Assembly: GCF_022953055.1 (NCBI RefSeq)
Contig: NZ_JALJEJ010000002.1
Location: 124,001 to 188,000 of the forward strand
Direction of reading: 5' to 3'
Source: Mucilaginibacter straminoryzae
GTDB lineage: Bacteria; Bacteroidota; Bacteroidia; Sphingobacteriales; Sphingobacteriaceae
DNA length: 64,000 nucleotides
Each line of letters opens with the position of its first letter. Position 1 is the first letter of the stretch. Below the pieces are notes generated by a model. The model saw nothing but the letters and a program-made list of their open reading frames with translations. It did not search any database and was not told the DNA's origin. A program made the position numbers and the translations under genes. Below, in pieces: positions 1,688-58,069 of this stretch.

Positions 1688-2101
1688 ATGGCTTATTCAG
1701 ATAAAGTAATTGACCACTACACCAACCCACGTAACGTTGGCACCCTTGATAAAGCAAGTAACCAGGTTGGTACCGGTTTAGTTGGTGCGCCAGAGTGTGG
1801 CGACGTAATGCGCCTGCAAATCCAAGTTGACGATAACAATGTAATCACCGACGCGAAGTTTAAAACTTTCGGTTGCGGTTCTGCAATTGCATCATCATCA
1901 TTAGCTACAGAGTGGTTAAAAGGTAAATCAATAGACGAAGCAATGACTATTGATAACATGGATATTGTGGAAGAATTGGCTTTACCGCCGGTAAAAATCC
2001 ACTGTTCTGTTTTGGCAGAAGATGCAATTAAAGCTGCTATTAACGATTATCGCGTTAAGAATGGCTTAGCACCTATCGAAACTGAAAAGTCTCACCATTA
2101 A
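1688..2101 (+). CDS. iscU: Fe-S cluster assembly scaffold IscU
   Basis: The 137-residue protein has the three cluster-ligand cysteines at the same positions as E. coli IscU: C37 (APECGDVM), C63 (TFGCGSAI) and C106 (KIHCSVLA), with D39 and H105 also conserved. It receives persulfide sulfur from IscS and iron to build [2Fe-2S] clusters for transfer to apoproteins. It lacks only a recognisable LPPVK chaperone motif in its exact form: the equivalent stretch reads LPPVKIHC, so the motif is in fact retained at residues 99-103. It is the second gene of the isc operon. Confidence 0.97.
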   Translation: MAYSDKVIDHYTNPRNVGTLDKASNQVGTGLVGAPECGDVMRLQIQVDDNNVITDAKFKTFGCGSAIASSSLATEWLKGKSIDEAMTIDNMDIVEELALPPVKIHCSVLAEDAIKAAINDYRVKNGLAPIETEKSHH

Positions 2102-2107
2102 TTTTAG

Positions 2108-2220
2108 AAACAGGAATCAAGAGCCAAGAAACAAGACAAAAAATTATTTCTTGCCCTTATTTCCTGTTCTGATATTGATTGTTTATTAGTCGAGAGATGA
2201 TGATCTTGACTCTTGATTCT
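2108..2220. repeat. CAAGA-family inverted repeat inside the isc operon
   Basis: The left arm (about 2108-2141) is built from GAATCAAGAGCCAAGA-like words. The right arm (about 2203-2220) is their complement, TCTTGACTCTTGATTCT. The arms could fold into a long imperfect hairpin on the iscU-iscA mRNA. The same word family recurs at 10911-11030 and 14637-14801. No start codon for iscA lies in it except a possible TTG at its right edge. Confidence 0.7.
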
Positions 2221-2227
2221 ACTAAAA

Positions 2228-2554
2228 ATGGTAACAGTAACTGATAAAGCGAAAGATAAGATTGAACATTTAATGCAGGACGCGGGTTTAGACCCTTCAT
2301 ATTTCCTGCGTGTATCTGTTCAAGGTGGCGGTTGCTCCGGTTTATCATATAAGCTTGATTTTGATAACGAAGAAAAAAAGGGCGACCAGTTTTTTGAAGA
2401 TAAAGGCGTACGCATGGCCCTAGACATGAAATCGTTCCTTTACCTGGCCGGTACAGAACTTGATTTTTCGGATGGCTTAAATGGCAAAGGCTTCAATTTC
2501 CACAACCCGAATGCTTCACGCACCTGTGGTTGCGGCGAGAGCTTCTCGGTGTAA
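2228..2554 (+). CDS. iscA: Fe-S cluster carrier/assembly protein IscA
   Basis: From the ATG at 2228 the protein has 108 residues. An upstream TTG at 2213 would add only five residues that come from the repeat, so it was not used. The A-type carrier cysteines are present: C36 in GGGCSGLSY and C100/C102 in the C-terminal CGCGESF motif. A-type carriers take clusters from IscU and deliver them, typically as [4Fe-4S], to target enzymes. It closes the isc operon and is followed 22 bp later by a strong terminator hairpin. Confidence 0.95.
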   Translation: MVTVTDKAKDKIEHLMQDAGLDPSYFLRVSVQGGGCSGLSYKLDFDNEEKKGDQFFEDKGVRMALDMKSFLYLAGTELDFSDGLNGKGFNFHNPNASRTCGCGESFSV

Positions 2555-2575
2555 AAGGAATTAACACAAATTATT

Positions 2576-2606
2576 CAAAGGCGCTTTTAAAGCGCCTTTG
2601 CTGTTT
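2576..2606 (+). terminator. Rho-independent terminator after iscA
   Basis: A perfect 12-bp stem (CAAAGGCGCTTT and its complement, separated by one T) spans 2576-2600 and is followed by GCTGTTTT. It ends the isc operon before the lipoprotein gene at 2633. Confidence 0.85.
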
Positions 2607-2632
2607 TAGACGAGATTTGCCTATCTTTCATA

Positions 2633-3292
2633 ATGAAACCTTTTACAACCTTACTCATATCTATTTCCATCCTATTAATCTTTAGCTGTGGTAAATCCAA
2701 TGAAATTAATTACAGCCGCAGTTTAAAGGCTATAGCAATTGATACAAGCAAGTATTCATATTTAAAAAAAGAGTTCAAGCTATTGTCAGTTGATAAAGCA
2801 GATTACCTTGGAGGATTAATACCACATTACGAGATAGCTTCCGGGTTTAAACGAATTAACAACAGGGATTCTATATCACAATACGATTGGTTGAATGAAG
2901 GGATGTACTTCGGTAGCCGCGTGTTAATTATCAAAAAAGATAACAATTATCTGCTGATAAAAAACCGGCGACAGTTGCAGAAACTATTTGCTCCGATAAC
3001 TTCCGATACCGAGGCGATAAGTTATGCGATTGCAGCATACCGCTTGTTCCCTATACTTAACAAGAGCTTTTATAAACGTTCTTTTGTTTATGAAGTAGAT
3101 AATCCCGGCTTAACTTACGTTGAGAAGGAAAAAGATTCCTACATCGTGCATCTATTTGATTACGATGTGTTCGGTTGCAGTCATCCGTATTATAAAGTTA
3201 CTGTAAGAGTGGATAAAAATGGTGATATGGGGCTATTAGATAAACAAAATGCTTTTAGAGATACAACCGAAGATAGTCTGTGTGTCGATTAA
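2633..3292 (+). CDS. Hypothetical lipoprotein
   Basis: The 219-residue protein has a lipoprotein signal peptide (KPFTTLLISISILLIFSC, lipidated cysteine C19 followed by G-K-S), so it should be anchored in the envelope. I do not recognise the family of the mature part. It is mixed alpha/beta in character, rich in tyrosine and aspartate, with no obvious metal or catalytic motif. Base composition is more AT-rich than the isc genes. It stands alone between the isc terminator and a bidirectional terminator shared with lysS. Confidence 0.75.
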   Translation: MKPFTTLLISISILLIFSCGKSNEINYSRSLKAIAIDTSKYSYLKKEFKLLSVDKADYLGGLIPHYEIASGFKRINNRDSISQYDWLNEGMYFGSRVLIIKKDNNYLLIKNRRQLQKLFAPITSDTEAISYAIAAYRLFPILNKSFYKRSFVYEVDNPGLTYVEKEKDSYIVHLFDYDVFGCSHPYYKVTVRVDKNGDMGLLDKQNAFRDTTEDSLCVD

Positions 3293-25815: not shown

Positions 25816-26826
25816 CGTCCTCATTGGGCAGGTTACTTTATACCTATTGTTGAGCAACAAGCCGATCACTATTTCGTGCGTGCCGTTACTTACTGTACGT
25901 AAGGCCGATGTGGTAAAATCGTAGGAGTAACCAACATTAATCAGCGAACTGATATTGATACCGGCAATAGCCGCTACCGCATCATTTCTACGATATGCTG
26001 CACCTATCCAAAAACGATCCCGAAAGGCCAGCTTTCCGTTGATATCAAACGTGGTAGGTACCGGGTTAATCACCTTTACCAAAACAGACGGCATAAAGGT
26101 GATATCATCTGTCACATACAGCTTTACACCTGCGGTAAAAAAGAAATGGGGCACTGTCTGGCTTTGGTTATAAGCGCCATTGGTGCTGAAATACAGATTT
26201 TGCTTAAGCAATTGCTGAGCAGATGCACCTACATAATAATCAGCAGAATACAGCCATACGCCCATGCCCAAGTCGGGTTTTATCTGGCTCACGTTACTGT
26301 TTGCAATAGCAGGATCATCTGCAAAATCGCCCAGCTGAATTTTAGACCGATCAAGGCCGATATTATTAATACCTGCTGATACACCTACCGCCAGGTTTAA
26401 CTTTGGCGCCAGGCCAAGGTGGTACGCATAGGTGGCGTTGATGGTAGTTTGGGTAATTGGCCCTGTCCTATCCCCTACCACCATTAAACCTACGCCATGG
26501 TGTGGTTCTGCGGCCATATACTCTTGCGTATAAGAGCGGCTTAGCGGATTGGTGCCGCCTGCTGCTGGCATCGCGGTAGCATCACCATCTATAAACTTAG
26601 CACCGATAGGCATATTCGCGGTAAGGTAAGTGGTAACGGGTGCACCATCCAGGCCCGTCCACTGCCTGCGATAGCCTGCTTTCACGTCCAGATAGTTTTC
26701 TATACCGCTCACCGCCGGGTTCAACAGGTAGTTATTAAAAACGTATTGGGTGTACTGGGGTTTCTGTTGCGAATACACACTTACCGTTAACAAACATAGC
26801 GCAACAAAAATGTAAATTTTTCTCAT
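25810..26826 (-). CDS. PorP/SprF family type IX secretion system outer-membrane protein
   Basis: The 338-residue protein has a signal peptide (MRKIYIFVALCLLTVSVYSQ) followed by the PorP/SprF opening QYTQYVFNNYLLNPAVSGIE, and RRQWTGLDGAPVTTYL, which are diagnostic of the family. The rest is an outer-membrane beta-barrel. SprF-type proteins serve as cell-surface attachment or export partners for particular T9SS cargo. Its ATG overlaps the stop of the upstream giant gene by 4 bp, so this barrel is very probably dedicated to that cargo. Confidence 0.93.
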   Translation of the reverse strand: MRKIYIFVALCLLTVSVYSQQKPQYTQYVFNNYLLNPAVSGIENYLDVKAGYRRQWTGLDGAPVTTYLTANMPIGAKFIDGDATAMPAAGGTNPLSRSYTQEYMAAEPHHGVGLMVVGDRTGPITQTTINATYAYHLGLAPKLNLAVGVSAGINNIGLDRSKIQLGDFADDPAIANSNVSQIKPDLGMGVWLYSADYYVGASAQQLLKQNLYFSTNGAYNQSQTVPHFFFTAGVKLYVTDDITFMPSVLVKVINPVPTTFDINGKLAFRDRFWIGAAYRRNDAVAAIAGINISSLINVGYSYDFTTSALRTVSNGTHEIVIGLLLNNRYKVTCPMRTF

Positions 26827-29800
26827 CTGATAATTGTGATAGTTCCGGCAACTGTTTTACGGCGGTTACCCGGGGTTATGATGTAATAATAAACACCAGC
26901 AGGTAAGTTAGCATTTTTATACGTTCCATCCCAGGGAACACTATATCCTGATGAAAAATAAATTTTCTGCCCGTTCCTGTCAAAAACCTCTACAGTAGCT
27001 CCGGGGTAGTTATTTAGATACTTAATATCCCAGAAATCATTTACCCCGTCATTATTAGGTGTAAACGTATTAGGAATTTCAGGTGCTTTTAAAACATAAA
27101 CATTTACCGAAGACATGGCCGTACAACCGTCTGCGGATGTTACCGTAAGCGTGTATTGGGTATCCTCTGTCGGCGTGGCAATAGGCTGTAATACGTCATC
27201 CCGGTTTAAACCTACAGATGGTGTCCATTTATATTTCAGATTGTTGCCGCTTGCCGTAGCGTCAAGGGTCGCCGTTTCTAAACCTTCAAGATAATGCTTG
27301 TCCGGGCCAGCATTAACCGTTGGCGTAGGATATACTACAATATTCATAGAGCTACTGTAAGTACAACCGGTATTATCTGCCGTAAACAAATAGTTGATAT
27401 TAGCAGTACCCGCACCTGCATCCGCAGGACTAAACAACCCGGACGCGCTTACCCCCTTGCCAGTAAAGACAGCCGTACCTGAAAACCCGTGGGTATCCGG
27501 CGTGATCTGGAACGGCGCGGTCTCGGCACAAACCGGCGCAATAGCAGGCAGATCTGCGTAAGGATTTGCATTAACGACAATATTGGTAACTGGCGTTATA
27601 CTGAAACAGCTTTGCCCGGAATATACCGCCATTTGTACTGCAAAGGTCTTGGTAAGCGGCGAGTTAAAATAGCCGTAGTTATGGGTATATTTTCCGTCTG
27701 CAGGTATCTGCCCTTTGCTGCGGTAAAAAACAGTGGTATCGTTAGGGTGATTGTTATAATCAAACCACCATACCACCTTGGTGATATTACCAAAATCAAC
27801 CGTAGACTGATCATCAAATATCACATCATTCGCACTACATAAGGTATTCGCATTCTCCACTGCAAACTGTGCCTTCGGAATTGCACCGTTAACGGTAAGC
27901 GCCTGCGTTTTTACAGCCTTACAACCGTATTTAGAAGTGACTGTCAGCGTTACGTTATAAACCCCGGCGGCACTATATTTATGTGATGGAGATTGTGTTG
28001 TCGACGTATTGTTGGCAGGAGCAGCATTTTGATCGCCGAAATCCCACAAATAGGTAAACGCGCTCTCGGTATGATCCGCAATGGTACTTGTTCCCGTAAA
28101 TTTGGCAGATGCATCGGCAAGGCAGACGTCGGGTAGAACAAAATCAGGTACCGGAACGGGGTAAACATTAATATTTGTGGAAGTTGTGCTTATACAGCCC
28201 GTTTGCGAAGTAACCGTTAATTTAACCGTATAAGGCTGAGCGTTTTGATACGTATGTTTCGGGTTCTGTTCTATAGATGTTTGCCCATCTCCAAAATCCC
28301 AGTTCCATCCTGTCAAATTACCATCTCCCGGCGTCGATTTATCTGTAAAGGCAATTTCCTGTCCGGCACAATCTATCGGTGACAGGGTAAACGAAGCTAC
28401 GGGTAGTTTATTGATATGTACTTTAACAATTGATGATACGCCTGCACAATTGTTCTCATTGATGGTGGTTAACACTACATTATAGTCACCTGGTGCGGCA
28501 TAAACATGTTTAGGGTTCTGCAAATCAGAACTTGTTCCGTCGCCAAAATCCCAGTGCCAGCTTTTTATCGGCAGTAATGTGGCTACGCTGGTATCCCTAA
28601 AAGCGGTGCTATCACCAAAACAAGTAGCGCTGTAAGTAAAACCGGCCTTCGGCGGATCGGCTATATTAAAATCGAATTCTACCTCTTCAGTAGCGCCGCA
28701 GTCTGATGCGGTTGGATTAAAAACACTGGCAATAACCGTATAATTACCCTTGGTAAAGGTTTTTGAATTGGTATAAGTATAGGTATACAAGGTTTGGCCG
28801 TTCTTTTGGCTCACCTGCGGTGTCAGGTTGGTCTGTACAACCGGGGCCGAGCCATCTTTAAAATCCCAGGAAATATTTGTCGTCTGGTACGGCAACGTTA
28901 TTTTAAGCAGATAAGTAACAGCCGAACAACCTGCGGTAAGCTGGCTGGTGCCCGAAGGCTCCTGCAGCGAAATGTATTCGTTTAGATTTTTTAGGTCTGT
29001 ACCTGCCGCGTAGCCATAAGATTCTACATTTCCGAAACCGTAGGCAATGGCGTTAAAACTTTCTGACGAACTGATATTATGCGTACCCGCCGCCACGCTG
29101 ATCTGCGCATAAGCATAAGCGCTATTGGCAGGCACCGGGGTAAAGGTATTATAAGCAGCGCCATCAAGTTTAAAAGAAGAAACACCCGTAGTTGGTATTA
29201 CTACGTTGATAAATTGCTTAGTAATGGCATAGTGCGGTGTGGAATAAAGCGTAACGTGATCCAGGCTTTGTTCCAGCGGGTTCAGATAGATCATCTCCGG
29301 GTCGCCGGTAGTTTCAGTTATTCTTGTACAATTTGGCCCGTTACCTTGTGATGGTGTGTACTGCACCACCTGCACCGGTTTATCGGCAGATATAGTTTTT
29401 GCGGTTGTACCGTCAAACTCATAATATAAGCCGCTGTATTGCGATTTCGGAACAGCCTGTCCGTCTACGGTAATGTTAGTAGTTGAATCTGTCATTACTA
29501 CCCGGTAAACGTCAAACGCCCTGCTGGCCAGCGGCACAGTGATATAGTTTTTACCCCATGACGAGGTTGGATATACCTGCTGGAAAAGATTATCGGCAGT
29601 AATAGCCGTAGTACATGAAATAGAGATTTTACTGCTGCCCGAAAAAACGGCTATCCTCTTACAACCGCTATTGTTAACATTTACGGTTTTAATGTGGGTA
29701 GAAGTAAGGTCGTTTGCGGATAAACCCTGGTAAACCTCACCTTTTTGTAACGTAACGGTAAATGTCGTTCCCTTCAAATGCCCTGAAAGCAAATCAGCAG

Positions 29801-30329
29801 AGGGGGTAATTTCTACCGTAGTATTATCTTCTACCGCAATAATATTAAATACAGAATATGTAGGGCGAGAAGCTGGTTCATTAGAACGCTGCGTATAATT
29901 GATAGACTGGTAGTCTTTACCCAGGGTACTCACCGGCAGTAATAACGTAGCCCCTGATACTGCTTGCGCATAAATATGCGCATAAACGGCAATGGCTTTA
30001 TCCGAGGTAATGTGGATACCTTTTAAGAATTGCCCTTCGGTTCCGCCGAGATAAGCCGTTGACGGAATCGCTACCTCTGTAACGCTATTCGCTTGTACCG
30101 TAAATGTTTGCGAATAATTGATTCCCGGAATTTCAACCACCCCGGATGTGTTCACATCAGAAGTAATATATAACGCCATCTGGCTGGGTTGGTTGCCGGT
30201 AACACCGGCGACATGGATCATGTAAGCCGTCCAAAACTCTGTACCCTTATTGGTAGTACTTTGTGCTGACGCTTTATTGAGGTTGAATAAACAAACTAAA
30301 AAAATAGCAAAACCGGCACAAAGCTTCAC
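26823..30329 (-). CDS. Giant secreted PKD-repeat protein, IgGFc-binding-like N-terminus, T9SS type B sorting domain
   Basis: The 1168-residue protein has a signal peptide ending near residue 22 (NKASAQ). Next comes an N-terminal region (about 25-480) with the IgGFc-binding-domain opening GTEFWTAYMIHV. Then come about four PKD-type beta-sandwich domains (about 560-930) with repeated WDFGDG motifs (WHWDFGDGTS, WNWDFGDGQTS, YLWDFGDQN), each followed by P-K/S-H-x-Y. The last 85 residues are the gliding-type sorting domain (IPNTFTPNNDGVNDFWDI, VEVFDRNGQKIY, LPAGVYYYII). It should be exported by the T9SS and held at or released from the cell surface, probably as an adhesin. The partner barrel overlaps its 3' end. 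Confidence 0.92.
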   Translation of the reverse strand: MKLCAGFAIFLVCLFNLNKASAQSTTNKGTEFWTAYMIHVAGVTGNQPSQMALYITSDVNTSGVVEIPGINYSQTFTVQANSVTEVAIPSTAYLGGTEGQFLKGIHITSDKAIAVYAHIYAQAVSGATLLLPVSTLGKDYQSINYTQRSNEPASRPTYSVFNIIAVEDNTTVEITPSADLLSGHLKGTTFTVTLQKGEVYQGLSANDLTSTHIKTVNVNNSGCKRIAVFSGSSKISISCTTAITADNLFQQVYPTSSWGKNYITVPLASRAFDVYRVVMTDSTTNITVDGQAVPKSQYSGLYYEFDGTTAKTISADKPVQVVQYTPSQGNGPNCTRITETTGDPEMIYLNPLEQSLDHVTLYSTPHYAITKQFINVVIPTTGVSSFKLDGAAYNTFTPVPANSAYAYAQISVAAGTHNISSSESFNAIAYGFGNVESYGYAAGTDLKNLNEYISLQEPSGTSQLTAGCSAVTYLLKITLPYQTTNISWDFKDGSAPVVQTNLTPQVSQKNGQTLYTYTYTNSKTFTKGNYTVIASVFNPTASDCGATEEVEFDFNIADPPKAGFTYSATCFGDSTAFRDTSVATLLPIKSWHWDFGDGTSSDLQNPKHVYAAPGDYNVVLTTINENNCAGVSSIVKVHINKLPVASFTLSPIDCAGQEIAFTDKSTPGDGNLTGWNWDFGDGQTSIEQNPKHTYQNAQPYTVKLTVTSQTGCISTTSTNINVYPVPVPDFVLPDVCLADASAKFTGTSTIADHTESAFTYLWDFGDQNAAPANNTSTTQSPSHKYSAAGVYNVTLTVTSKYGCKAVKTQALTVNGAIPKAQFAVENANTLCSANDVIFDDQSTVDFGNITKVVWWFDYNNHPNDTTVFYRSKGQIPADGKYTHNYGYFNSPLTKTFAVQMAVYSGQSCFSITPVTNIVVNANPYADLPAIAPVCAETAPFQITPDTHGFSGTAVFTGKGVSASGLFSPADAGAGTANINYLFTADNTGCTYSSSMNIVVYPTPTVNAGPDKHYLEGLETATLDATASGNNLKYKWTPSVGLNRDDVLQPIATPTEDTQYTLTVTSADGCTAMSSVNVYVLKAPEIPNTFTPNNDGVNDFWDIKYLNNYPGATVEVFDRNGQKIYFSSGYSVPWDGTYKNANLPAGVYYYIITPGNRRKTVAGTITIIR

Positions 30330-30962: not shown

Positions 30963-33095
30963 ATGAAAAAACTGTTTTTAGTGTTAATGCTGCTATCTTT
31001 TGCGGTGCAACTGCGGGCGGCAGACACGCTAACGGTACGCGAAAATGATGCAATCCTGATCAGCAAGAAGTTTTACGAAGAACTGGAAGACCCCAAGGCG
31101 TTATTGCAGGCCAGGGAAATTATCAATAACCCACGTTTTCATCAACCGGATGACGAACTGCCAGAGATAAAATACGACGAGGCCGCCATTTGGCTGAAGG
31201 TTAAGATACGAAATAAGACGGCGCAACCTTTTATTCCTATTACCATCAGCGGCAGTGTTATTGATGAATTTGACCTCTATTTCGTCGGGACCAGTAAGCG
31301 TTTGCTCCATCTAAAATCGTCTAACCCAAAATTCAATTCCAACCAGCTTCAATCTAACCTTACCAATATCAATTTTGCACTACTACCAGATTCTACCCGC
31401 ACCATCTACCTGCGTATCAAGAGTAGTGCAAACACGGTCATTCCCGTTCAGGTGCATAGCGCTACTTACTTCCTTCAATCTATCAGCACTCAAAACTTAA
31501 TTCTCGGCGCTTTTATCGGTATGGTGCTCGTGATGGCGGCTTATCACCTGCTGCTTTTCTTCACGGTGAAAGATATCAGCTACTTCTATTACACCTTATA
31601 TATTATTTCGCTTGCGTTAACGCAAATTCTTTTAAGGGGGGTCGGCACCAATTTATTTCAAAATAATCAGCAGCTTTTGAATGATATTGTCCAGCCCATC
31701 ACACGGATGATGCTTGGCATCACCATCATTCTTTTTGTATATGAATTTCTACAGATCAAGAATCGTGGAAAAACCCTTCAGGTATATTTCAAGGGTATGT
31801 TCATTTTCTATTGCCTGCCTTTGTTATTTGTAATCACCGGCTTGCCGCATATTGCCTATAACATCATTTCAGTAAGCGCACTGATGGTCTCCGTTTCACT
31901 ACTGGTTATCGGTGGCTCGCTTTACTTTAAGGGTTATACCCCTGCGAAATATTTTATGCTTGCGTGGACACTGTTCTTTGTTTCCATTATTGTTACTGTG
32001 CTGCGCAACCAGGGCCTGGTTCCTTACAACAACTTTACCCTTAATATTGTGCTCTATAGTTCAGCCATTGAATTTGTGCTGTTCTCTGTCGCCCTGGCAG
32101 ACCGCATCAATTTCTACAGACAACAACATAACCAGGCACAATCGGCGGCGCTGGCTATTGCACTTGAAAACGAACGGCTGATCACCGAACAAAACCTGAT
32201 ACTCGAAAGAAAAGTAAACGAACGCACCGTAGAGCTAATAGAAAGTAACAAAACCCTGCAGGTGAGCCTGGAAAACCTTCAGGCCACCCAGTCACAACTG
32301 ATCGCGACGGAAAAGATGGCATCCCTGGGGCAACTTACAGCCGGGATAGCCCATGAAATTAACAACCCCATTAATTTTGTAAGCGCCAACGTACAGCCGC
32401 TGCGACTTGATTTCCTGGAAGTGTTTGACCTGATAGAAAAATACATTGCATTTGAGCACGAACCTGATAATGGCGCACTGAAAGATGAGGTAAACCGTTA
32501 TCGCCAGCAGATCGATGTTGATTATATCAAACAAGAGATCCTCACGCTTTTAGAAGGCATTGAAGAAGGCGCTTTGCGTACCAAAGAAATTGTGGACAGC
32601 CTGCGGACGTTCAGCCGCACAGACGAGCAATCTTTAAAAGCAGCAGATATTAATAAGGCTATTTTAAGCACATTAGTTATCCTGCGCAGTGCTATCCCCG
32701 CCTATATATCCATACAGCCGGTACTGGATAAACTGCCATTGATCAATTGCTACCCCGGTAAGATTAGCCAGGTATTCATTAACCTTATCTCAAATAGCAT
32801 TGATGCCATCAAGGCAAAAGATACGCATGAGAACGAGTTTATCCTGATCACGACATCGGATTATGAAAAAGAAATAGAGATCCGAATAAAAGATACCGGA
32901 ACCGGCATATCCCCCGAGGCTAAGCACCGCATTTTTGACCCCTTTTACACCACTAAAGAAGTTGGTGAAGGAACAGGCCTTGGCCTTTCCATTGTATTTG
33001 GTATCATAGAAAAGCACCAGGGACATATAGAAGTGGAATCGGAGCCCGGCGTAGGAACTACAATAACGGTCAGGCTACCCAAAAACCTTAATTAA
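30963..33095 (+). CDS. 7TMR-DISM sensor histidine kinase
   Basis: The 710-residue protein has a signal peptide (about 1-20), a periplasmic 7TMR-DISMED2 beta domain (about 25-175; EAAIWLKVKIRNKT), seven membrane helices (about 180-385), a coiled coil (about 390-440), a HisKA domain with the phospho-accepting histidine in LTAGIAHEINNPINFV, and a HATPase domain with N box LISNSIDAI, G1 IKDTGTGIS and G2 GEGTGLGLSIVFGI. DISMED2 domains resemble carbohydrate-binding modules and may sense glycans. The divergent receiver at 30412 is the likely partner. Confidence 0.94.
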   Translation: MKKLFLVLMLLSFAVQLRAADTLTVRENDAILISKKFYEELEDPKALLQAREIINNPRFHQPDDELPEIKYDEAAIWLKVKIRNKTAQPFIPITISGSVIDEFDLYFVGTSKRLLHLKSSNPKFNSNQLQSNLTNINFALLPDSTRTIYLRIKSSANTVIPVQVHSATYFLQSISTQNLILGAFIGMVLVMAAYHLLLFFTVKDISYFYYTLYIISLALTQILLRGVGTNLFQNNQQLLNDIVQPITRMMLGITIILFVYEFLQIKNRGKTLQVYFKGMFIFYCLPLLFVITGLPHIAYNIISVSALMVSVSLLVIGGSLYFKGYTPAKYFMLAWTLFFVSIIVTVLRNQGLVPYNNFTLNIVLYSSAIEFVLFSVALADRINFYRQQHNQAQSAALAIALENERLITEQNLILERKVNERTVELIESNKTLQVSLENLQATQSQLIATEKMASLGQLTAGIAHEINNPINFVSANVQPLRLDFLEVFDLIEKYIAFEHEPDNGALKDEVNRYRQQIDVDYIKQEILTLLEGIEEGALRTKEIVDSLRTFSRTDEQSLKAADINKAILSTLVILRSAIPAYISIQPVLDKLPLINCYPGKISQVFINLISNSIDAIKAKDTHENEFILITTSDYEKEIEIRIKDTGTGISPEAKHRIFDPFYTTKEVGEGTGLGLSIVFGIIEKHQGHIEVESEPGVGTTITVRLPKNLN

Positions 33096-45217: not shown

Positions 45218-46699
45218 TCAATAGCCCGGATTTTGCTTCAGGGCCGGATTTCTGTTCAATTCAGTTTGCGGAATCGGCAGTAATTCTTTTTCCTTCGTCA
45301 TGTTATAATTTACGCGCTGCCCGGTAACCAGGTTGGTTTCAACCAGATTGTTCATCACCGTTTCTGCACGTCCGTAACGTACCAGGTCATACCAGCGTTG
45401 CGCTTCCTGGGTAAGCTCCAGGCGGCGTTCGTTCTCAACAGCCAGGGCCATATCTGCCTGTGTTGTTGCAGTGGTATTTTGCAAGCCAGCACGTTTACGA
45501 ACAATGTTCAAGGTGGTTGCCGCTTCTGCCGGGCGACCAAGTGCGTTCTGCGCCTCTGCTTTTAACAGGATAATATCTGCCAAACGCAACAGGTACTGAC
45601 GGCTGATACTGTTACCATTAACAAAGTTGCGCCACTTGTAAGAGAACGGCACACTTCCGCCTACTTTGGTCGACCAGTATTCATCCGCCCACGGTGCATT
45701 TTCAAACAGTATGCTTTGATTTTTACGAACTACATCGCCTTGTGCATCAAACGCCTTTGCCAGATCACGTGAAGGGGTAATAAACTTCCTCCAGGTAGTA
45801 TTAGTGATAGATGGCGGCAGTAACAATCCCGGCGACCAGTTGCTGATGGTAGTGCCGTTAAACTGAACTTCTAAAATAGATTCAGAACTATTGTAATGCG
45901 CAGCATCCCAAAGGTCGCTGTAATTGGTAACCAAAGCATAACCTGCGGGGCTATTTATTACGGCATCACAATAGGTTAAAACCTTGTTGTAATCGCGGTC
46001 TGGGCGTTGTGCCCAAACTTTAGCTAACAAAGCATTAGCGGCGCCCTTGGTAGCGCGTGCCTTATTTACCGAAGCATCGCTTCCGTAGGTATCCGGCAGG
46101 TTATTTACCGCAGTTTGCAGGTCTGATACAATCTGGTCATACACCTGCGTAACCGATGCACGCGCGGTATTGGTTTCTGAAGGATCAGTCGTGCTGATCG
46201 GCGTTAGCACCAAAGGCACACCGCCCCAGTTGATCACCAACTGGTAGTAGTTAAAGGCACGCAAAAACGCAGCTTCGCCGATGATCTGGTTTTTCCTGGT
46301 AGCGGTTAATTTGGCATCAGTAATAGCAGGCACCTTTTGCAGCACCAGGTTCGCTTTCAAAATCGCATTGTACAAAGCCGCCCAGTCGCCGTAAACCTTA
46401 CTGTTTGTTGGCGAAATATTCAGCAGGTCTAACTGGTTAAACTCCTGGTTGTCACCGCCAGAATAATGGTTATCAGAGCGTACATCGCCGTAATAAACGT
46501 TATCCCAGATGTAATAGTCCTGCGAACTGAAAGTATTGTAAACGCCGGTAATGGCAGCCTCAGCATCATCAGCCGTGTTAAAAGAGTTGGTAGTGGTAGC
46601 CTGCGAGATCGGGTTAAGATCCAGGCCTTTTTTACAAGCTGATGCACCAATAGCAATAGATGCAGCCAGCATGTAGTTCAGTATATTTTTGTTTTTCAT
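45218..46699 (-). CDS. SusD/RagB-family surface glycan-binding lipoprotein
   Basis: The 493-residue protein has a lipoprotein signal (AASIAIGASACKKG) followed by LDLNPISQATT and the TPR-like helical SusD fold. SusD hallmarks include AFLRAFNYYQLVINWGGVPLV and the C-terminal LELTQEAQRWYDLVRYGRA and YLLRLADIILLKAEAQN-type segments. It caps the SusC barrel and delivers oligosaccharides. It starts 10 bp after susC, in the same operon. Confidence 0.95.
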   Translation of the reverse strand: MKNKNILNYMLAASIAIGASACKKGLDLNPISQATTTNSFNTADDAEAAITGVYNTFSSQDYYIWDNVYYGDVRSDNHYSGGDNQEFNQLDLLNISPTNSKVYGDWAALYNAILKANLVLQKVPAITDAKLTATRKNQIIGEAAFLRAFNYYQLVINWGGVPLVLTPISTTDPSETNTARASVTQVYDQIVSDLQTAVNNLPDTYGSDASVNKARATKGAANALLAKVWAQRPDRDYNKVLTYCDAVINSPAGYALVTNYSDLWDAAHYNSSESILEVQFNGTTISNWSPGLLLPPSITNTTWRKFITPSRDLAKAFDAQGDVVRKNQSILFENAPWADEYWSTKVGGSVPFSYKWRNFVNGNSISRQYLLRLADIILLKAEAQNALGRPAEAATTLNIVRKRAGLQNTTATTQADMALAVENERRLELTQEAQRWYDLVRYGRAETVMNNLVETNLVTGQRVNYNMTKEKELLPIPQTELNRNPALKQNPGY

Positions 46700-46709
46700 T
46701 GTTAGTCAA

Positions 46710-49649
46710 TTAGAATGATACGTTCAGACCAAAAATCAGGTTCCGGGTTTGCGGATAAGTACCATAATCGATACCGATAGCGCCATTGTTAGACAGGTTG
46801 TTGTTGGTTACAAAGGCATTCACTTCCGGGTCGAAGCCAGAATACTTGGTAAAGGTCAACAGGTTCTCGCCGGTCACATACAACCTTACGTTTGAAACGT
46901 GCAGTTTGGTAAGCAACGTTTTTGGCAGGGTATAACCCAAAGTAGCGGTACGCAATCTCAGGTATGAGCCATTTTCTACAAACCGGGTAGAGATCAAAGA
47001 GTTGTTGATGTTATCGCGTGATGCTCTCGGAACGTCTGTTACCTGGCCAGGCGCTGTCCATCTTCTCAGTACCGCGGTCGATTGGTTTTGCGGACCTGTC
47101 ATACCTTCGGTCTCGATACGTGTTGCATTGAAGATATCGTTACCCTGAGAACCCTGGAAGAAGATATTCAGGCTGAAGTTTTTATACGTCAGCGTGTTGG
47201 TTAAACCGTAAATAAAATCGGGATTAGGGTTGCCGATGATGGTACGGTCCGCCGCGCTTGGGGTAGCCGTAGTGCCGCCGCTTGCGGTTCGATAAAGCTC
47301 GTTACCTGTAGCCGGATCTACACCTGCAGCCACATAACCGTAGAACATGCCTAATGGCTGACCTTCCTGCACGATGCTTACGTTATCGCGACCGGAAATA
47401 CCACCTGCATAAATTTGCTGACCAACAATGCTCATTACCTTATTTCGGTTGAATGAAATGTTGAAGTCGGTGTTCCAGGTAAAGTCTGTTTTCTTAACGT
47501 TTACAGAGCTTACCATAAACTCTATACCGCGGTTACGCAGTTTACCGGCGTTAACGGTGGCGATATCAAACCCGGTTGAACGTGGCAAAGGCAGGTTCAA
47601 CAGCAAGTCGCTGGTATTTTTTTCGTATACGTCGGCAGTGAAATTCAAACGTGAATTCAATAAGCTCAGGTCGATACCGATGTTGGTTTGTTTGGTCTGC
47701 TCCCATTTCAGGTTGCGGTTCTCTACAGATGACGGATAGTTACCCGGCTGTACGCTGCCGCCGATCACATAGTTTGAACCGCTGCTGATTCGTCCAAGGT
47801 AGGAATACGGGTCGATCTGGTCGTTACCAACAATACCCCAACCTGCTCTCAGTTTCAGGTCATTGATGGCCTCTACATCTTTCAGGAAGCTTTCTTCAGA
47901 AAGTCTCCAACCGGCAGAGAATGATGGGAAGTAACCCCAACGCTTACCCGGACCAAATACTGATGAACCATCCGCACGAAAATTAGCCGTTAACAAATAT
48001 TTGCCGGCATAATCATAGTTGATACGGCCCAGCGCAGACATATTTGCTCTTTCTGCAATAGTATTGTTTGCTGTAATGGTAGACCCGGCGTTGGTTGTAG
48101 GGATATTGTTACTTGAAAAACCGGTGGCCTGGATATAGCCGTTTTCGTAACGGAATTTCTGATAAACATAACCAGCCAAAACGTTGAAGGAATGCTTATC
48201 AATCTTCTTATCGTAAGTCAGGGTGTTATCGCTGATCCAGTAGTTTGTCAGGTAAGTTTGGTTACGCGAGATACCTTTGTTCTGACGGCCGTAGCTGGTC
48301 AGGTATGGATCAAGGAAGTAATTGCTTACCGCATTGCTGTAATCTGTACCGATGCTGCTTCTGAACTTCAGGTCTTTGGTGAATTTAATTTCGCCATAGG
48401 CATTACCCAGCAAACGCTGGTTTTTGTACGGACGGGTAGAACCGTATAAACTAGCCAGCGGGTTTTCCCACTCCTGGAAAGGGTTAGCAGTGTAAGTACT
48501 ATTGGCATTGAAAACACCGATGTTTGGCGGCGTAGTTAACGCACCTAACAGCACACCACCCGAATTTACGTTGGCATTATCGGTAATGCTTACATCATTA
48601 TAGTTGGTATAAGTAAGGTTGGTACCTACGGTGAACCAGTTATTTACTTTTTGTTCAAGGTTCACCTTAAAGTTATAGCGCTGCATTTGTGAACTGCGAA
48701 TAACCCCTTTTTGTTGTGTCCAGCCGCCGGAAATGTAATAAGTGGTTCCGTCAGATTTTCCTGAAACGGCTAACTGGTAATTCTGCGAGATACCGTTACG
48801 GAAGATTTCGTCCTGCCAGTTGGTGTTATTGGTGTATTGGCTCCAGTCTGTAGTGTAACCCATGCTGGTTACCAGGTCGCGGTACTGGTCTGCGTTTAAA
48901 ACATCCAGTCTTTTACGTACAGACGAAAAACCGGTATAGCCGCTAAAATCAACACGTGGTTTGCCGGTACCCCTTTTGGTAGTGATCAGCACCACGCCAT
49001 TGGCACCCTGCGCACCGTAGATAGCAGCAGAAGAAGCATCCTTCAGGATCGAAATATTCTCGATATCTGCAGGATTCAGCGAACGGGTATCGGTCGTCGG
49101 CACACCGTCCACTACATAAAGCGGGCTGCTGCCTGCCGTGATGGAGTTAGCGCCACGTATCTTGATATTCAGGGTAGATGTAGGGCTTCCGGATGGCGAC
49201 ACCACTTGCACGCCGGCTGTTTTACCTTCAATCAGGTTACCGAATTGCGTGTTTGGCCGGGCATCCAGGTCTTTCTTACCTACTACGGCAATCGCACCGG
49301 TAATGTCGCCTTTACGCTGCGTACCGTAACCTACTACTACCACTTCGTTCAGGGCAGTATTGGCGTTAGCCAATGTAACGTTGATGGTCGTTCGTCCGGC
49401 AATGGGCTGTTCCTGGGTAGCCATACCGATAAAACTAAATACCAATGTGTTTTGCGGGCCGGTAGTAATGCTGTAGTTACCGTTAACATCGGTAGCAATA
49501 CCTGTTGTTGCCCCTTTAACCCTTACTGATACGCCAGGAAGGGTTTGCCCTGTTGGATCCTTCACCACTCCTTTTACCGTAATGTCCTGCGCGAAGGCCC
49601 AGGCAGCGGATAATAGGAATGCGAAGAATAAAGTAATTTTCTTTTGCAT
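46710..49649 (-). CDS. SusC/RagA-family TonB-dependent outer-membrane transporter
   Basis: The 979-residue protein has a signal peptide (about 1-20), a carboxypeptidase-like N-terminal domain (about 22-100; VKGVVKDPTGQTLPGVSVRVKG), the Ton-box region VVVGYGTQRKGDITGA, the plug (about 110-225) and a 22-strand barrel. It imports glycans bound by SusD with energy from TonB. There is no extra N-terminal FecR-interacting domain, so control is probably not by an ECF sigma/anti-sigma pair. The gene upstream encodes a membrane protein with a DNA-binding tail. Confidence 0.95.
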   Translation of the reverse strand: MQKKITLFFAFLLSAAWAFAQDITVKGVVKDPTGQTLPGVSVRVKGATTGIATDVNGNYSITTGPQNTLVFSFIGMATQEQPIAGRTTINVTLANANTALNEVVVVGYGTQRKGDITGAIAVVGKKDLDARPNTQFGNLIEGKTAGVQVVSPSGSPTSTLNIKIRGANSITAGSSPLYVVDGVPTTDTRSLNPADIENISILKDASSAAIYGAQGANGVVLITTKRGTGKPRVDFSGYTGFSSVRKRLDVLNADQYRDLVTSMGYTTDWSQYTNNTNWQDEIFRNGISQNYQLAVSGKSDGTTYYISGGWTQQKGVIRSSQMQRYNFKVNLEQKVNNWFTVGTNLTYTNYNDVSITDNANVNSGGVLLGALTTPPNIGVFNANSTYTANPFQEWENPLASLYGSTRPYKNQRLLGNAYGEIKFTKDLKFRSSIGTDYSNAVSNYFLDPYLTSYGRQNKGISRNQTYLTNYWISDNTLTYDKKIDKHSFNVLAGYVYQKFRYENGYIQATGFSSNNIPTTNAGSTITANNTIAERANMSALGRINYDYAGKYLLTANFRADGSSVFGPGKRWGYFPSFSAGWRLSEESFLKDVEAINDLKLRAGWGIVGNDQIDPYSYLGRISSGSNYVIGGSVQPGNYPSSVENRNLKWEQTKQTNIGIDLSLLNSRLNFTADVYEKNTSDLLLNLPLPRSTGFDIATVNAGKLRNRGIEFMVSSVNVKKTDFTWNTDFNISFNRNKVMSIVGQQIYAGGISGRDNVSIVQEGQPLGMFYGYVAAGVDPATGNELYRTASGGTTATPSAADRTIIGNPNPDFIYGLTNTLTYKNFSLNIFFQGSQGNDIFNATRIETEGMTGPQNQSTAVLRRWTAPGQVTDVPRASRDNINNSLISTRFVENGSYLRLRTATLGYTLPKTLLTKLHVSNVRLYVTGENLLTFTKYSGFDPEVNAFVTNNNLSNNGAIGIDYGTYPQTRNLIFGLNVSF

Positions 49650-49716: not shown

Positions 49717-49748
49717 CAAATTTATGGATGAAAACGGCAAATAAACAA
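49717..49748 (-). promoter_or_regulatory. Predicted susC promoter
   Basis: On the minus strand, TTG (49748-49746), a 21-bp spacer and TAAATTTG (49724-49717) match the Bacteroidota consensus. Transcription would start about 64 nt before the susC ATG. Confidence 0.55.
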
Positions 49749-49797
49749 GCTTGTTTTTGATTAAATTATTGATAATTAGATATTTATAAAAATTTTA

Positions 49798-49816
49798 ATA
49801 CGGTTCAAAACCGTAT
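49798..49816. promoter_or_regulatory. Perfect 8+3+8 palindrome upstream of the susC promoter
   Basis: ATACGGTT-CAA-AACCGTAT lies about 50-70 bp upstream of the predicted -33 box and 137 bp after the regulator gene ending at 49953. Related words occur at 49863 (TACGGCAAGC) and 49891 (TACGGCTTAA). It could be an operator or a weak terminator hairpin (on the minus strand the stem is followed by TAAAATTTTT). Confidence 0.5.
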
Positions 49817-49952
49817 CATCCCGCTATGTTTACCTGTTGATTTTCAGCATAAAAGGTGGGGGTACGGCAAGCGTTAGCGTGAATAATTGATACGGCTTAA
49901 CACCTTGAAAAAATTTAACCGGCTATAAAAACAGATGAGTATGTGATGACAA

Positions 49953-51839
49953 TTAAGCTTCCAGAACCAGCTTGCTCCAGCCCTCTTTCGGTGCAGTGCG
50001 TAATTCTTTCTTCTTCTCCTCCATCAACTTTTTGATCTTCGCGGTATAGGTCCAGCAAGTTCCCTGCCGGATCTGCAGGATCTCTGATAATTTATGTGAT
50101 GATATTTTTCCCTTGGTAGAATACATCAGGAAAAGCAGATAGAAAGCTTTGTTGAGCGGAATACGGCCATTCTGAAAAATGGTGTAAGCGGTGGCTGATT
50201 CGTCATAGTCACATTTGGCACATCTCCTGCTATGCGGCGTATGCCCGGAAAAGTAGTGCGTATTGTTGCATTTACGACACTGGTAACCGTCTTTCCACTT
50301 CAAATCCGCAAGAAATAAATAGCAGCTTTCTGCGTCCGGATATACCCTGCTGAATTCGTCAAAATCAACCTCTTCAGACATTACGCGCTGGCGTGTTACC
50401 TTTTCTACATTGATATGCAGCACCTCGTTGTCTTTCTCGAGCAACACGTTCATGCGCGATATTTCTTCGGCCTGTTTTACCAGTAAATCGTTCTTTTCTT
50501 TTAGCTCGAGGTTTTGCGATTCAATAATGGCTGTTTTTTCTACTAATGACTGCGTACGCTGTGCTACCAGGGCCTCCAGTTCTTTGTTTAGTTTATCCTT
50601 CAGCCTGTCGTTTTCACGCATTTGCTTAATCATCAGCTTTTGCGCTTTATCTTTCTTACGCTTCAGCATACGCACGCTATCGCCTACCGCAAGGGAAAGG
50701 AAGATCATTTCTGCAAGGAAACTGATGGTGAGGCTATAATACGTAAAAGCATCAATGTTCAGCCAGTTATAGCCCAGCATGATCAGTATCTTCAAACTAA
50801 AGCCCAGGCACAGGCAGCCATAACCGATCACAAAGAATCTGGCAGGCCTGTAACCCTTGTTATTGATATAAATACCGGTACCCAACGCAAGTACCAAAGG
50901 CAAAAACTCAATGAACTTATAGGTTAACAAAGACTTATCAAACAGGAAGCAATAGCACAGAAACGCCAGTCTTAAGCCGATCACTGCCACCAGTACCTTA
51001 TCTAATACAGGTGCTTGTTCTTTAGTGCGCAACAATGCCCGTGTAAACATCAGGCAGAAGCAACTGATGGCACATAACGCAATAGCGAAGGCATACTGGT
51101 TCCATTGCGGCGAAGAAGGCCAGAGGTATTGGTAAGCAAGCCCATCTGAACAGAGTTCATACATGGCGATGCTTAACAGATACAACACATAATACAGGTA
51201 CTGTTTCTGGCGAACAGCAATGAACATCAGCAGGTTATAGAAACCAAAAACGAGGATCATGCCGTAAAACAGCCCAAAACTGAAGTACTCGTTATTCGTG
51301 TACCGCACAAACCAATTGACCGAGCGCAGCACCACGATGATATCCGCCCGCTCGTGCGATTGCACCTTGAAATAATAGATGCCATCTGCGGCCGTGTTCT
51401 TTAGCGGCAGCTCAAAATTTTTATGCTGAAATATCCGGTCAGCAAACGGGCGGGTATCGCCCAGGTTGGTCACGGAATAGCTATCGTTTGCTTGGGGAAT
51501 ATATGCCGTCAGGTGGTCTATCGTCTGGTCGAAGAATTCCAGTATCCAGTTTTTGCCGGTCTGGCCGGAAGCATCTATCCGGATGCGGTACCAATAAACA
51601 GAACTCGGCTTTCGCGTCTGCGGGGTGCTGGTCTTACTTGATTTGAAACAACTGGCAAAAGCCGGGCTGCTAACCTGCTGAAAAGTTAACTTTCCGCCAG
51701 CATCTTCATAAGCCTCAATTTCTTTAAAGGTAAAAATGTGCTGGTCCTGCTGATCATTGATCCTGACCGGTTGCTGGGCAAAAACCCAGGCAGGAAACCA
51801 TAGGGTAAAAAATAGAATTAGAATAAAAATCCTTCTCAC
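49953..51839 (-). CDS. 7TMR-DISM membrane receptor fused to an IS1595-transposase-type zinc ribbon/HTH
   Basis: The 628-residue protein has a signal peptide (about 1-22), a periplasmic 7TMR-DISMED2 domain (about 30-175), seven membrane helices (about 185-390) and a coiled coil (about 390-485). The C-terminal 120 residues read like the N-terminus of IS1595-family transposases: YPDAESCYLFLADLKWKDGY, then a CRKC and CAKC zinc ribbon, SATAYTIFQNGRIPLNKAF and a helix-turn-helix ending ILQIRQGTCWTYTAKIKK. The DDE nuclease part is absent. There is no kinase domain. The gene is just upstream of susCD on the same strand, so it may be a one-component membrane regulator of the glycan locus. The role is inference. 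Confidence 0.85.
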   Translation of the reverse strand: MRRIFILILFFTLWFPAWVFAQQPVRINDQQDQHIFTFKEIEAYEDAGGKLTFQQVSSPAFASCFKSSKTSTPQTRKPSSVYWYRIRIDASGQTGKNWILEFFDQTIDHLTAYIPQANDSYSVTNLGDTRPFADRIFQHKNFELPLKNTAADGIYYFKVQSHERADIIVVLRSVNWFVRYTNNEYFSFGLFYGMILVFGFYNLLMFIAVRQKQYLYYVLYLLSIAMYELCSDGLAYQYLWPSSPQWNQYAFAIALCAISCFCLMFTRALLRTKEQAPVLDKVLVAVIGLRLAFLCYCFLFDKSLLTYKFIEFLPLVLALGTGIYINNKGYRPARFFVIGYGCLCLGFSLKILIMLGYNWLNIDAFTYYSLTISFLAEMIFLSLAVGDSVRMLKRKKDKAQKLMIKQMRENDRLKDKLNKELEALVAQRTQSLVEKTAIIESQNLELKEKNDLLVKQAEEISRMNVLLEKDNEVLHINVEKVTRQRVMSEEVDFDEFSRVYPDAESCYLFLADLKWKDGYQCRKCNNTHYFSGHTPHSRRCAKCDYDESATAYTIFQNGRIPLNKAFYLLFLMYSTKGKISSHKLSEILQIRQGTCWTYTAKIKKLMEEKKKELRTAPKEGWSKLVLEA

Positions 51840-52014: not shown

Positions 52015-52037
52015 CTAACGATACGATTAACCGCCGT

Positions 52038-55830: not shown

Positions 55831-57024
55831 ATGGAGAGTGGTGCGCTTTTAAAAGCCATAATAGAAAATGCTATCGACGGCATTATTACCATTGGTGAAA
55901 GAGGAATAATCGAAAGCATTAATCCTTCGGCCTGTAAACTATTTGGTTATCAGCCAGAAGAAGTAGTAGGCCGCAACATCTCCATGCTGATGCCACCACC
56001 TGACAGTGTTCAGCACGACGAATATATTAACCGGTACCAACAGACTGGCAAAGCGCATATTATCGGCATCGGCCGCGAGGTTAAGGGCCTGCGCAAAGAC
56101 GGCTCTATCTTTCCGTTCCGCCTGGGTGTGAGTGAAGTCCAATTCTCGGGACGAAAGATTTATACCGGTTTCATCCATGACCTTAGCCGCGAAAAGGACG
56201 CCGAAGAAAAACTGCGGGTATACGCCGCACACCTGGAAGAACTGGTAGAAGAACGTACGCAATCGCTGCAAAAATCACTGAAAGCGCTGGAGGTGGCTAA
56301 AGAGGAAGTGATCCAGACGCTTGAAAAAGAAAAGGAGCTGGGCCAGTTGAAAAGCCGCTTTGTCTCCATGGCTTCGCACGAGTTCCGCACACCGCTAAGT
56401 TCTATTCAGCTATCTGCTGTTCTGATAGAAAAATACGCGCAGGAGTTCAACAGCCCTAACATTGCCAAACATATTGCAAAAATTAAGAACTCTGTTGCCA
56501 ACCTCACCAGTATCCTGAATGATTTCCTATCGCTCGAAAAACTAGAGGCCGGCAAAGTAGCGCCTGTTTATACCACGTTTGATATTGTGAATTTCTCTGA
56601 AGAAATTACGGAAGAGATGCAGCTGATCGCCAAGCAAAACCAACACATCGTGTATCAGCACACAGGTACCAGCGGTATGGTAAGCCTTGACCAGGCACTG
56701 CTGAAAAACTGTATCATCAACCTCATCAGCAACGCCATCAAATATTCGGGCGAGAATACATTTATCGAGTTCAATACAGAAATTACGCCCCATGCCCTTA
56801 CCGTTGTGGTAAAAGATAACGGTATAGGCATACCCGAAGCTGATCAGAAACACTTGTTCGAAGCCTTCTTCAGGGCGCACAACACCGGCAACATACCGGG
56901 TACAGGCCTTGGCCTTAATATCGTGACACGTTATGCCGGACTGATGAACGGCCAAATTAAATTCGAAAGTAAAGTAAACAACGGTACATCCTTCACCTTA
57001 ACATTCCCTTTCAGCCATGAGTAA
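55831..57024 (+). CDS. FixL-like heme-PAS oxygen-sensing histidine kinase
   Basis: The 397-residue soluble protein has a PAS domain (about 5-120), a coiled coil (about 122-170), HisKA (phospho-accepting H183 in SMASHEFRTPLSS) and HATPase (N box NCIINLISNAIKYS, G2 GTGLGLNIVTRYAG). The PAS segment aligns with the heme pocket of rhizobial FixL: H62 is the proximal heme ligand, R68, H76 and I77 line the pocket, and R82 is the distal arginine that signals oxygen binding (HIIGIGR). The proximal region QHDEYINRY matches FixL closely. It lacks the N-terminal membrane segments of Sinorhizobium FixL. The start overlaps no other gene; the stop overlaps the next gene by 8 bp. Confidence 0.93.
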   Translation: MESGALLKAIIENAIDGIITIGERGIIESINPSACKLFGYQPEEVVGRNISMLMPPPDSVQHDEYINRYQQTGKAHIIGIGREVKGLRKDGSIFPFRLGVSEVQFSGRKIYTGFIHDLSREKDAEEKLRVYAAHLEELVEERTQSLQKSLKALEVAKEEVIQTLEKEKELGQLKSRFVSMASHEFRTPLSSIQLSAVLIEKYAQEFNSPNIAKHIAKIKNSVANLTSILNDFLSLEKLEAGKVAPVYTTFDIVNFSEEITEEMQLIAKQNQHIVYQHTGTSGMVSLDQALLKNCIINLISNAIKYSGENTFIEFNTEITPHALTVVVKDNGIGIPEADQKHLFEAFFRAHNTGNIPGTGLGLNIVTRYAGLMNGQIKFESKVNNGTSFTLTFPFSHE

Positions 57025-58069
57025 ATGCATCTTGATTATTGAGGATAACAATGACATTCGCGAAAGCACAGCAGAAATACTTGAACTAAGCGGTTACCAG
57101 GTATTGCAAGCCGCTAATGGTAAACTTGGTGTTGACCTTGCCGGCCAGCATAAACCAGACTTGATCCTTTGCGACATTATGATGCCCGAACTGGATGGCT
57201 ATGGTGTGCTTTACCTGTTGAATAAAAACCCCGACACAGCCTCTACCCCATTTATTTTCCTGACCGCCAAGGCAGAACGCGTGGATTTCAGAAAAGGCAT
57301 GGAAATGGGTGCCGATGATTACCTCACCAAGCCCTTTGATGATATTGAATTGCTGAACGCCATTGAAAGCCGCCTGGCAAAAAAGGAAAAGCAGCAGGCC
57401 TATTACAGCCGCTCTTTACAGAATATAGAAGGGTTGGCCAATAGCTCGAAAAACGGCACTGCAGAACTGCAGAATGTAATTGCCAGCAGAAAAATAAGAC
57501 AGATAAAAAAGAAACAGGTGCTGTATTACGAGGGTGATACGCCGCAGGGTATTTACCTGGTCCTCGAGGGCAGCATTAAAACCTTGAAATTGGCCGAAGA
57601 TGGCCGCGAGTTAATGACTGGGCTGTACAAGCCGGACGATTACCTGGGCGTGAATGCACTACTGCTTGACGAGACCTTTACCGATACGGCTGAAGCCATG
57701 GAAGATGCGGCAGTTTGTCTGTTGCCTAAAGATACCGTGCTCACGCTGCTTGACCGTTACCCCGACATCGGCCGACAGTTTTTAAAAATACTTTCTAACG
57801 ATATCCGCGAAAAAGAAGACCAGCTGATCGAATTGGCGTATAATTCAGTACGTAAACGCCTGGCTCAGGTACTGGTAAGGCTAAGCAAGCAGTCTGCAGA
57901 TCCCGCACATTTCAAAATTTCGCGCGAAGAGCTGGCTTCTATGGCCGGTATGGCTACCGAGACTGTAAGCCGTACACTTACCGATTTTAAAGACGAAGGT
58001 TTGATTGAAAAGAAAGGCGCAAACGTGCAGGTGCTGGACTTAAACCGCTTGATGAAAATGAAAAACTGA
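57017..58069 (+). CDS. Response regulator with receiver fused to a CRP/FNR-type DNA-binding protein
   Basis: The 350-residue protein has a receiver domain (about 3-120) with phospho-acceptor D53 (LILCDIMMPELD), T83 and K105 (YLTKPF). A linker follows (about 125-155), then a cyclic-nucleotide-binding-like beta-roll (about 160-260, LYYEGDTPQGIYLVLEGSIK) and a Crp-type helix-turn-helix (about 285-335, REELASMAGMATETVSRTL and TDFKDEGLI). It joins the roles of FixJ and FixK in one chain. No Fe-S cysteine cluster of FNR is present, so oxygen input should come by phosphorylation from the kinase. The two genes overlap by 8 bp, indicating coupled expression. Confidence 0.93.
   Translation: MSKCILIIEDNNDIRESTAEILELSGYQVLQAANGKLGVDLAGQHKPDLILCDIMMPELDGYGVLYLLNKNPDTASTPFIFLTAKAERVDFRKGMEMGADDYLTKPFDDIELLNAIESRLAKKEKQQAYYSRSLQNIEGLANSSKNGTAELQNVIASRKIRQIKKKQVLYYEGDTPQGIYLVLEGSIKTLKLAEDGRELMTGLYKPDDYLGVNALLLDETFTDTAEAMEDAAVCLLPKDTVLTLLDRYPDIGRQFLKILSNDIREKEDQLIELAYNSVRKRLAQVLVRLSKQSADPAHFKISREELASMAGMATETVSRTLTDFKDEGLIEKKGANVQVLDLNRLMKMKN

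Follow-up and report, generated by a model that had tools for sequence, protein, structure and literature searches.

D*, a putative membrane-embedded one-component regulator of a glycan utilization locus in Mucilaginibacter straminoryzae with an IS1595-type DNA-binding domain

The window, as we call the whole stretch of DNA that was analysed, comprises 64,000 nucleotides of Mucilaginibacter straminoryzae (contig NZ_JALJEJ010000002.1) and contains an open reading frame, here named D* (49953–51839, minus strand; GTG start at 51839, stop at 49953), which encodes a protein of 628 aa. According to Pfam, D* lies among genes of glycan utilization, all on the minus strand. Downstream are a susC-like TonB-dependent transporter (46710–49649), which is the predicted regulated gene, a susD-like glycan-binding lipoprotein (45218–46699), and a GH30 enzyme (PF02055; 43758–45134), whose best solved relative is BT3312 (5ngk). 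Upstream is a GH29 α-L-fucosidase (PF01120; 52038–53420), whose regulation is uncertain. The gap from D* to susC is 303 bp and that to GH29 is 198 bp. A preliminary description of this DNA had placed D* directly upstream of susC/susD and between the GH29 and GH30 genes, and all of these are found where it put them.

The D* protein starts with a periplasmic sensor domain of the 7TMR-DISMED2 type (residues 40–171, 51327–51722, minus strand; PF07696, E 1.2e-28), followed by a 7TMR-DISM seven-transmembrane (7TM) domain (residues 184–387, 50679–51290, minus strand; PF07695, E 6.7e-48). Both matches are far above the Pfam cut-off, and the combination of a 7TM domain with an N-terminal DISMED domain places D* among the 7TMR-DISM receptors, as the preliminary description had it. 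Between the 7TM part and the C-terminus, AlphaFold2 predicts a continuous signalling helix or coiled coil of approximately 118 unbroken residues (369–486; 50382–50735, minus strand), with low pLDDT at 457–475, and this helix corresponds to the coiled coil that had been proposed to follow the sensor. It is succeeded by the strands of an IS1595-type zinc ribbon (residues 502–545, 50205–50336, minus strand; PF12760, 27.0 bits against a Pfam cut-off of 25.4), containing C521, C524, C540 and C543, and then by a helix-turn-helix (HTH; residues 562–608, 50016–50156, minus strand) with the recognition helix ..IRQGTCWTY... For the full chain the mean pLDDT is 79, with low confidence within the long helix, and for the isolated C-terminal domain it is 87, mostly >90 across ribbon and HTH. 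Structure prediction had been named as the check on which the claim of a ribbon and an HTH at the C-terminus would stand or fall, and both appear in the model. Moreover, the four cysteines are invariant in the full-length D* alignment and in a diverse C-terminal alignment, in which 47 C-terminal domains with identity down to 28% retain every zinc ligand as well as the HTH. Kinase, receiver and DDE nuclease domains were sought with Pfam and none was found, in agreement with the earlier statement that D* has neither nuclease nor kinase. The protein therefore has the layout of a one-component system, namely a sensor and a DNA-binding-type domain in one chain without a phosphorelay domain.

The C-terminus of D* resembles the N-terminal part of IS1595-family transposases. 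L006, a complete IS1595 transposase of the same genome carrying PF12760 and PF12762, aligns with it at 30% identity over 117 residues (BLASTP, E 6e-18), and the alignment runs through both the zinc ribbon and the HTH. The NCBIfam model of IS1595 transposases matches residues 558–611 (the HTH) only, with E 1.7e-6, which is below the whole-protein cut-off. The ribbon, the HTH and the lead-in of the N-terminal half are common to D* and the IS1595-family transposases of the ISXO2 type, whereas D* is missing the DDE/ISXO2 nuclease (PF12762), is joined to a membrane receptor and adjoins glycan genes. In a maximum-likelihood tree of the domain, all examined D* DNA-binding domains form one clade (support 100/97), which also takes in one stand-alone zinc ribbon-HTH protein, and IS1595-type transposases lie outside it on several branches. 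With the D* domains in one clade and the transposases outside, one capture is the simplest reading, midpoint rooting being a caveat on the capture count, and the tree suggests that a single captured IS1595-type domain gave rise to the D* family. The homology to L006 and the tree position beside IS1595-type transposases support the descent of the D* C-terminus from the N-terminus of such a transposase, as well as the reading, put forward in the preliminary description, of D* as a membrane-bound regulator made from a transposase part. A search of PDB folds with the C-terminal model gave no match at E ≤ 0.001, and a profile search of PDB sequences with the C-terminus gave weak zinc-ribbon or HTH matches only. 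The stand-alone member of the clade (L227, 1194–1607, minus strand) has 137 aa and no nuclease. The IS1595-like N-termini closest to the D* DNA-binding domain are found in genome G473 (L249–L257), which has approximately 19 such genes of 310–340 aa; inverted repeats were sought around nine copies and no clear ones were seen, so these genes may not be ordinary insertion sequences.

The intergenic region between D* and susC contains two candidate operator copies on the minus strand, GGTGTTAAGCCGTATCA (49888–49904) and GGTTTTGAACCGTATTA (49796–49812), which are direct repeats in the same orientation, 92 bp apart from start to start. A predicted -33 box, CTTG (49746–49749, minus strand), lies 46 bp after copy 2, and a predicted -7 box, TAAATTTG (49717–49724, minus strand), lies 21 bp after the -33 box (CTTG-N21-TAAATTTG); both boxes are assigned by the Bacteroidetes consensus, which for the -7 box is TAnnTTTG. 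Such a pair is general in the family, as two direct copies of the 17-bp GGTAnnnAAGCGTATCA, 86–93 bp apart, occur in all 66 named D*-to-susC/GH30 intergenic regions when a loose search form is used, the chance expectation being, by our own arithmetic, <1 of 66 regions. SusC-type loci have the consensus GGTAnnnAAGCGTATCA, and GH30-type loci of Mucilaginibacter have G[TC]GAnnnAAGCGTATCA. When the first locus set (683 kb) is searched with a strict form, tighter than the loose one and missed by the window's own two copies, 21 pairs result, 20 being in promoters, and five shuffles of the set yield no pair. As the copies are spaced by 79–93 bp, both need not share one helix face. The -33 box is recognised in 55/87 loci. 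It follows copy 2 at 45–48 bp in 37 of them and at 57 bp in 16; these two distances differ by approximately one helical turn and together account for 53 of the 55. In addition, 27 loci have their first TAnnTTTG 70–72 bp after copy 2, where shuffles would give 0.9. We read these distances from copy 2 to the promoter as an activator-like geometry. Upstream of D* itself there is one weak half-site (52019–52034) and no pair that would point to autoregulation. Two other operator candidates were set aside. A 19-bp palindrome, perfect apart from its odd centre base (ATACGGTTCAAAACCGTAT, 49798–49816, overlapping copy 2), was the first candidate, but it is not conserved in relatives, whereas the direct repeats are. 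An origin of the operator from an IS1595 inverted repeat was rejected because the 24-bp repeat that flanks L005/L007 (AGAGTAATAGCCCAT...) is unlike the D*-associated site.

The D* family is large. A scan of GTDB-representative contigs with an alignment query gave 492 stretches encoding relatives (a single-protein query of contigs matched none), and the genera among the 80 that were kept include Mucilaginibacter, Pedobacter, Chitinophaga, Dyadobacter, Siphonobacter, Albibacterium and Nubsella, besides others. Two further full-length paralogues with 48–49% identity are present in the window's genome, and 94 of 150 Mucilaginibacter genomes have a D* gene. When a distant D* member served as the query, related receptors were found in 48/148 genomes of its order, with up to eight per genome, although some of the weaker matches do not reach the C-terminus and could carry other outputs; in 30 loci of this set the C-terminus was read, and it contains the zinc ribbon and HTH, with varying recognition helices.

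The neighbourhood of these genes is conserved as well. The next gene on the same strand after D* is susC in 49 of the 79 named loci and GH30 in 14, so that the homologues have the conserved genomic neighbours on which the preliminary description had made its reading depend, and the same pattern is seen in 33 separately fetched D* loci, partly from the same genomes. Further neighbours are GH3, GH5, GH16, GH2, alginate-lyase family and chondroitinase-B family genes. The conserved theme is SusCD with GH30/GH3/GH16, and GH29 is not a conserved partner. In one group of loci (L039–L041), two susCD pairs flank D* and an adjoining, divergent hybrid two-component regulator, so that two regulator types are found in one locus.

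The co-occurrence of D* and the tandem site has been examined across the 150 Mucilaginibacter genomes by genome-wide pattern searches. A strict site pair is present in 69/94 genomes with D* and in 7/56 without it (odds ratio 19, p 1.5e-13), in a comparison that is phylogenetically structured. A reversed-pattern control matches roughly a dozen of the 150 genomes, about the same level as that of the D*-less genomes. For 67/117 site matches, a D* gene is no more than 15 kb away. Among the unlinked sites in D*-bearing genomes, four precede GH30-GH16 operons (L209, L212, L213, L214) and two precede paired GH18 genes (L210, L211), a distribution that fits a regulon for fungal cell walls. The window's own genome also has an unlinked tandem TTGTGAACARAGCGTATCA pair (contig C7, L271, 1501–1586), which stands before an alginate-lyase-family gene (1773–2948, plus strand), and a D* paralogue on another contig (C21) adjoins two alginate-lyase-family genes; the gene on C7 is probably controlled in trans by a D* paralogue.

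The site also follows the recognition helix. No site pair was found beside D* proteins whose helix is other than IRQ-[SGN]-TCW in 16 loci from two families (f15, n=7; f36, n=9), even though SusC lies downstream in 6/7 of the f15 loci and SusC or GH3 in 9/9 of the f36 loci. Conversely, G311, from a distant family in which D* retains IRQSTCWAY, has the pair. One exception is L187, which has the IRQSTCW helix and no site nearby, and whose genome is without a match to a related pattern. Because the comparisons of site, helix and D* are phylogenetically structured, they are support for, rather than proof of, a D* binding site. Mutual information between protein columns and operator positions was dropped as evidence, since it mostly reflects clades. 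A search for an alternative tandem motif in f15 and f36 gave single common blocks and no convincing pair: AATGTTTTTT.. in the f15 loci (L179–L181), and TTGTTTTTTAGC in the f36 loci (L259–L267), both before SusC/GH3 and each being a possible operator of another helix.

The likely substrate is indicated by the GH30 enzyme of the window, which in a PDB sequence search is closest to BT3312 (E 1.3e-84), the GH30_3 endo-β-1,6-glucanase of the fungal β-1,6-glucan locus of B. thetaiotaomicron (PMC5481569). On this similarity, the substrate of the D* locus is probably β-1,6-glucan. A mechanism can be proposed in which the periplasmic DISMED2/7TM part of D* senses a ligand, probably an oligosaccharide freed from the target glycan and here presumably a β-1,6-gluco-oligosaccharide, the sensing role being suggested by the 7TMR-DISM family. 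The signal would pass from the 7TM part via the long, presumably dimeric helix to the cytoplasmic ribbon-HTH, which is predicted to bind the two direct 17-bp copies approximately 90 bp apart upstream of the susC/GH30 promoter. Bound D* would then switch on susC-susD-GH30, as the promoter geometry and the precedents of SusR and hybrid two-component systems (HTCS) suggest. Binding to the tandem site, a candidate interaction, is strongly supported by the association of the site with the gene, its presence across genomes and the recognition helix.

We hold it to be highly likely that D* activates the transcription of a glycan utilization locus as a one-component regulator embedded in the membrane, SusR-like in working and built from other parts. 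It has no other output domain, SusC/SusD/GH30/GH3 genes come next in several genera, and the tandem pair in 66 of 66 regions co-occurs with D* and goes with its recognition helix. Against this stand the partly phylogenetic nature of the co-occurrence, in which D* and the site could co-travel as parts of one locus, the lack of the strict pattern in 25 of the 94 D*-bearing genomes, the exception L187, and the PDB folds, none of which matched the C-terminal model significantly. It is conceivable that the site belongs to another regulator (an unlinked HTCS, a CRP-like or a sigma-dependent one) and that D* controls something else or only modulates, for sequence alone cannot tell which protein binds the site, the L039–L041 loci also carry a hybrid two-component regulator beside D*, and some sites are far from any D* gene. 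Such an arrangement is nevertheless unlikely, as D*-less genomes show the site at approximately the reversed-pattern background, the site vanishes with a changed D* helix though D* still precedes SusC or GH3, and in D*-bearing genomes the same site precedes GH30-GH16, GH18 and alginate-lyase-family operons.

A DNA-binding domain near a promoter would fit either sign of control, and D* might be a susC repressor released by its ligand. This seems less likely still, given that approximately 46 or 57 bp separate the copies from the predicted -33 box downstream, which leaves them outside the promoter in an activator-like position, and that comparable loci are activated by their SusR and HTCS regulators, which also use direct repeats (PMC3878776). 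The barely sufficient PF12760 score would fit a decayed or inactive transposase remnant without a DNA-binding role, but the retention of four zinc ligands and the HTH in 47 domains down to 28% identity, the high confidence of the C-terminal model and the association of the operator with the recognition helix make this very improbable.

As an activator, D* has its closest counterparts in the SusR-like regulators of Bacteroides, such as SusR (BT3705) and SusR3 (BT3309), which likewise have a membrane location, a periplasmic sensor, a cytoplasmic DNA-binding domain and linkage to SusC/SusD. BT3309 regulates the fungal β-1,6-glucan locus of B. thetaiotaomicron, comprising SusCD, GH30_3 and GH3 (PMC5481569), a gene theme that is also that of the D* locus. 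The predicted operators of SusR-like regulators are direct repeats whose centres are unusually far apart, at 67 or 77 bp (PMC3878776), and the longer D* spacing of 86–93 bp resembles theirs. By description, D* has the SusR-like layout of a membrane sensor-regulator linked to SusCD with a long-spaced direct-repeat candidate operator. The SusR DNA-binding domain, however, has been reported to be without significant similarity to other factors, and D*, with its 7TMR-DISM sensor and IS1595 ribbon-HTH, is set apart from SusR by that description. The HTCS of Bacteroidota are also membrane sensors that adjoin SusCD and use direct-repeat operators, but these are approximately 21 bp apart (PMC3878776) instead of approximately 90 bp, and D* lacks histidine kinase, receiver and AraC domains as judged by Pfam.

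Among the listed architectures of Proteobacteria is a 7TMR-DISM receptor fused to a DNA-binding domain of the ChiS family (PMC8092284). Like D*, these proteins connect the receptor to a DNA-binding domain, whereas that of D* is of the IS1595 type (Pfam, NCBIfam) and comes from another phylum, the ChiS proteins being compared by description. The 7TMR-DISM/ChiS-domain proteins are not known to be linked to SusCD. The 7TMR-DISM histidine kinases have the same sensor and 7TM domains as D* and a kinase output instead of the DNA-binding domain. The window also encodes a second 7TMR-DISM protein (30963–33095, plus strand), which has the sensor in common with D* and a HisKA/HATPase output.

SusR-like, HTCS and ECF sigma/anti-sigma systems are the classes to which regulators of Bacteroidota glycan loci are usually attributed (PMC3878776). 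Many glycan loci of soil Sphingobacteriales, Chitinophagales and Cytophagales could seem to have no regulator, and the D* class, with hundreds of members, would fill this gap; it comes, unusually, with a predicted operator and regulon. Judged from its sequence, D* very probably represents a new type of direct switch governing the use of glycans, here a fungal β-glucan, and it would clearly exemplify how part of a transposase can become the output of a membrane receptor. No earlier description of a D*-type regulator was found in the open-access literature searched, most subscription journals being outside the scope of the search. More broadly, it appears rather likely that membrane-bound one-component activators of this kind go back to a single ancient event, in which a 7TMR-DISM receptor captured the DNA-binding domain of an IS1595-type transposase. 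On this view, the class then spread through Bacteroidota, paralogues with differing recognition helices rose to as many as eight in one genome, and its members control glycan loci, in the studied branch via direct-repeat operator pairs approximately 90 bp apart. This would be a further membrane-tethered logic beside SusR and HTCS.

Two other regions of the window deserve mention. On the plus strand (55831–58069), a PAS histidine kinase is followed by a response regulator with a cyclic-nucleotide-binding domain and a Crp-type HTH. On the minus strand (26823–30329), a protein of 1168 aa contains an IgGFc-binding-like domain, PKD domains and a type IX secretion signal.
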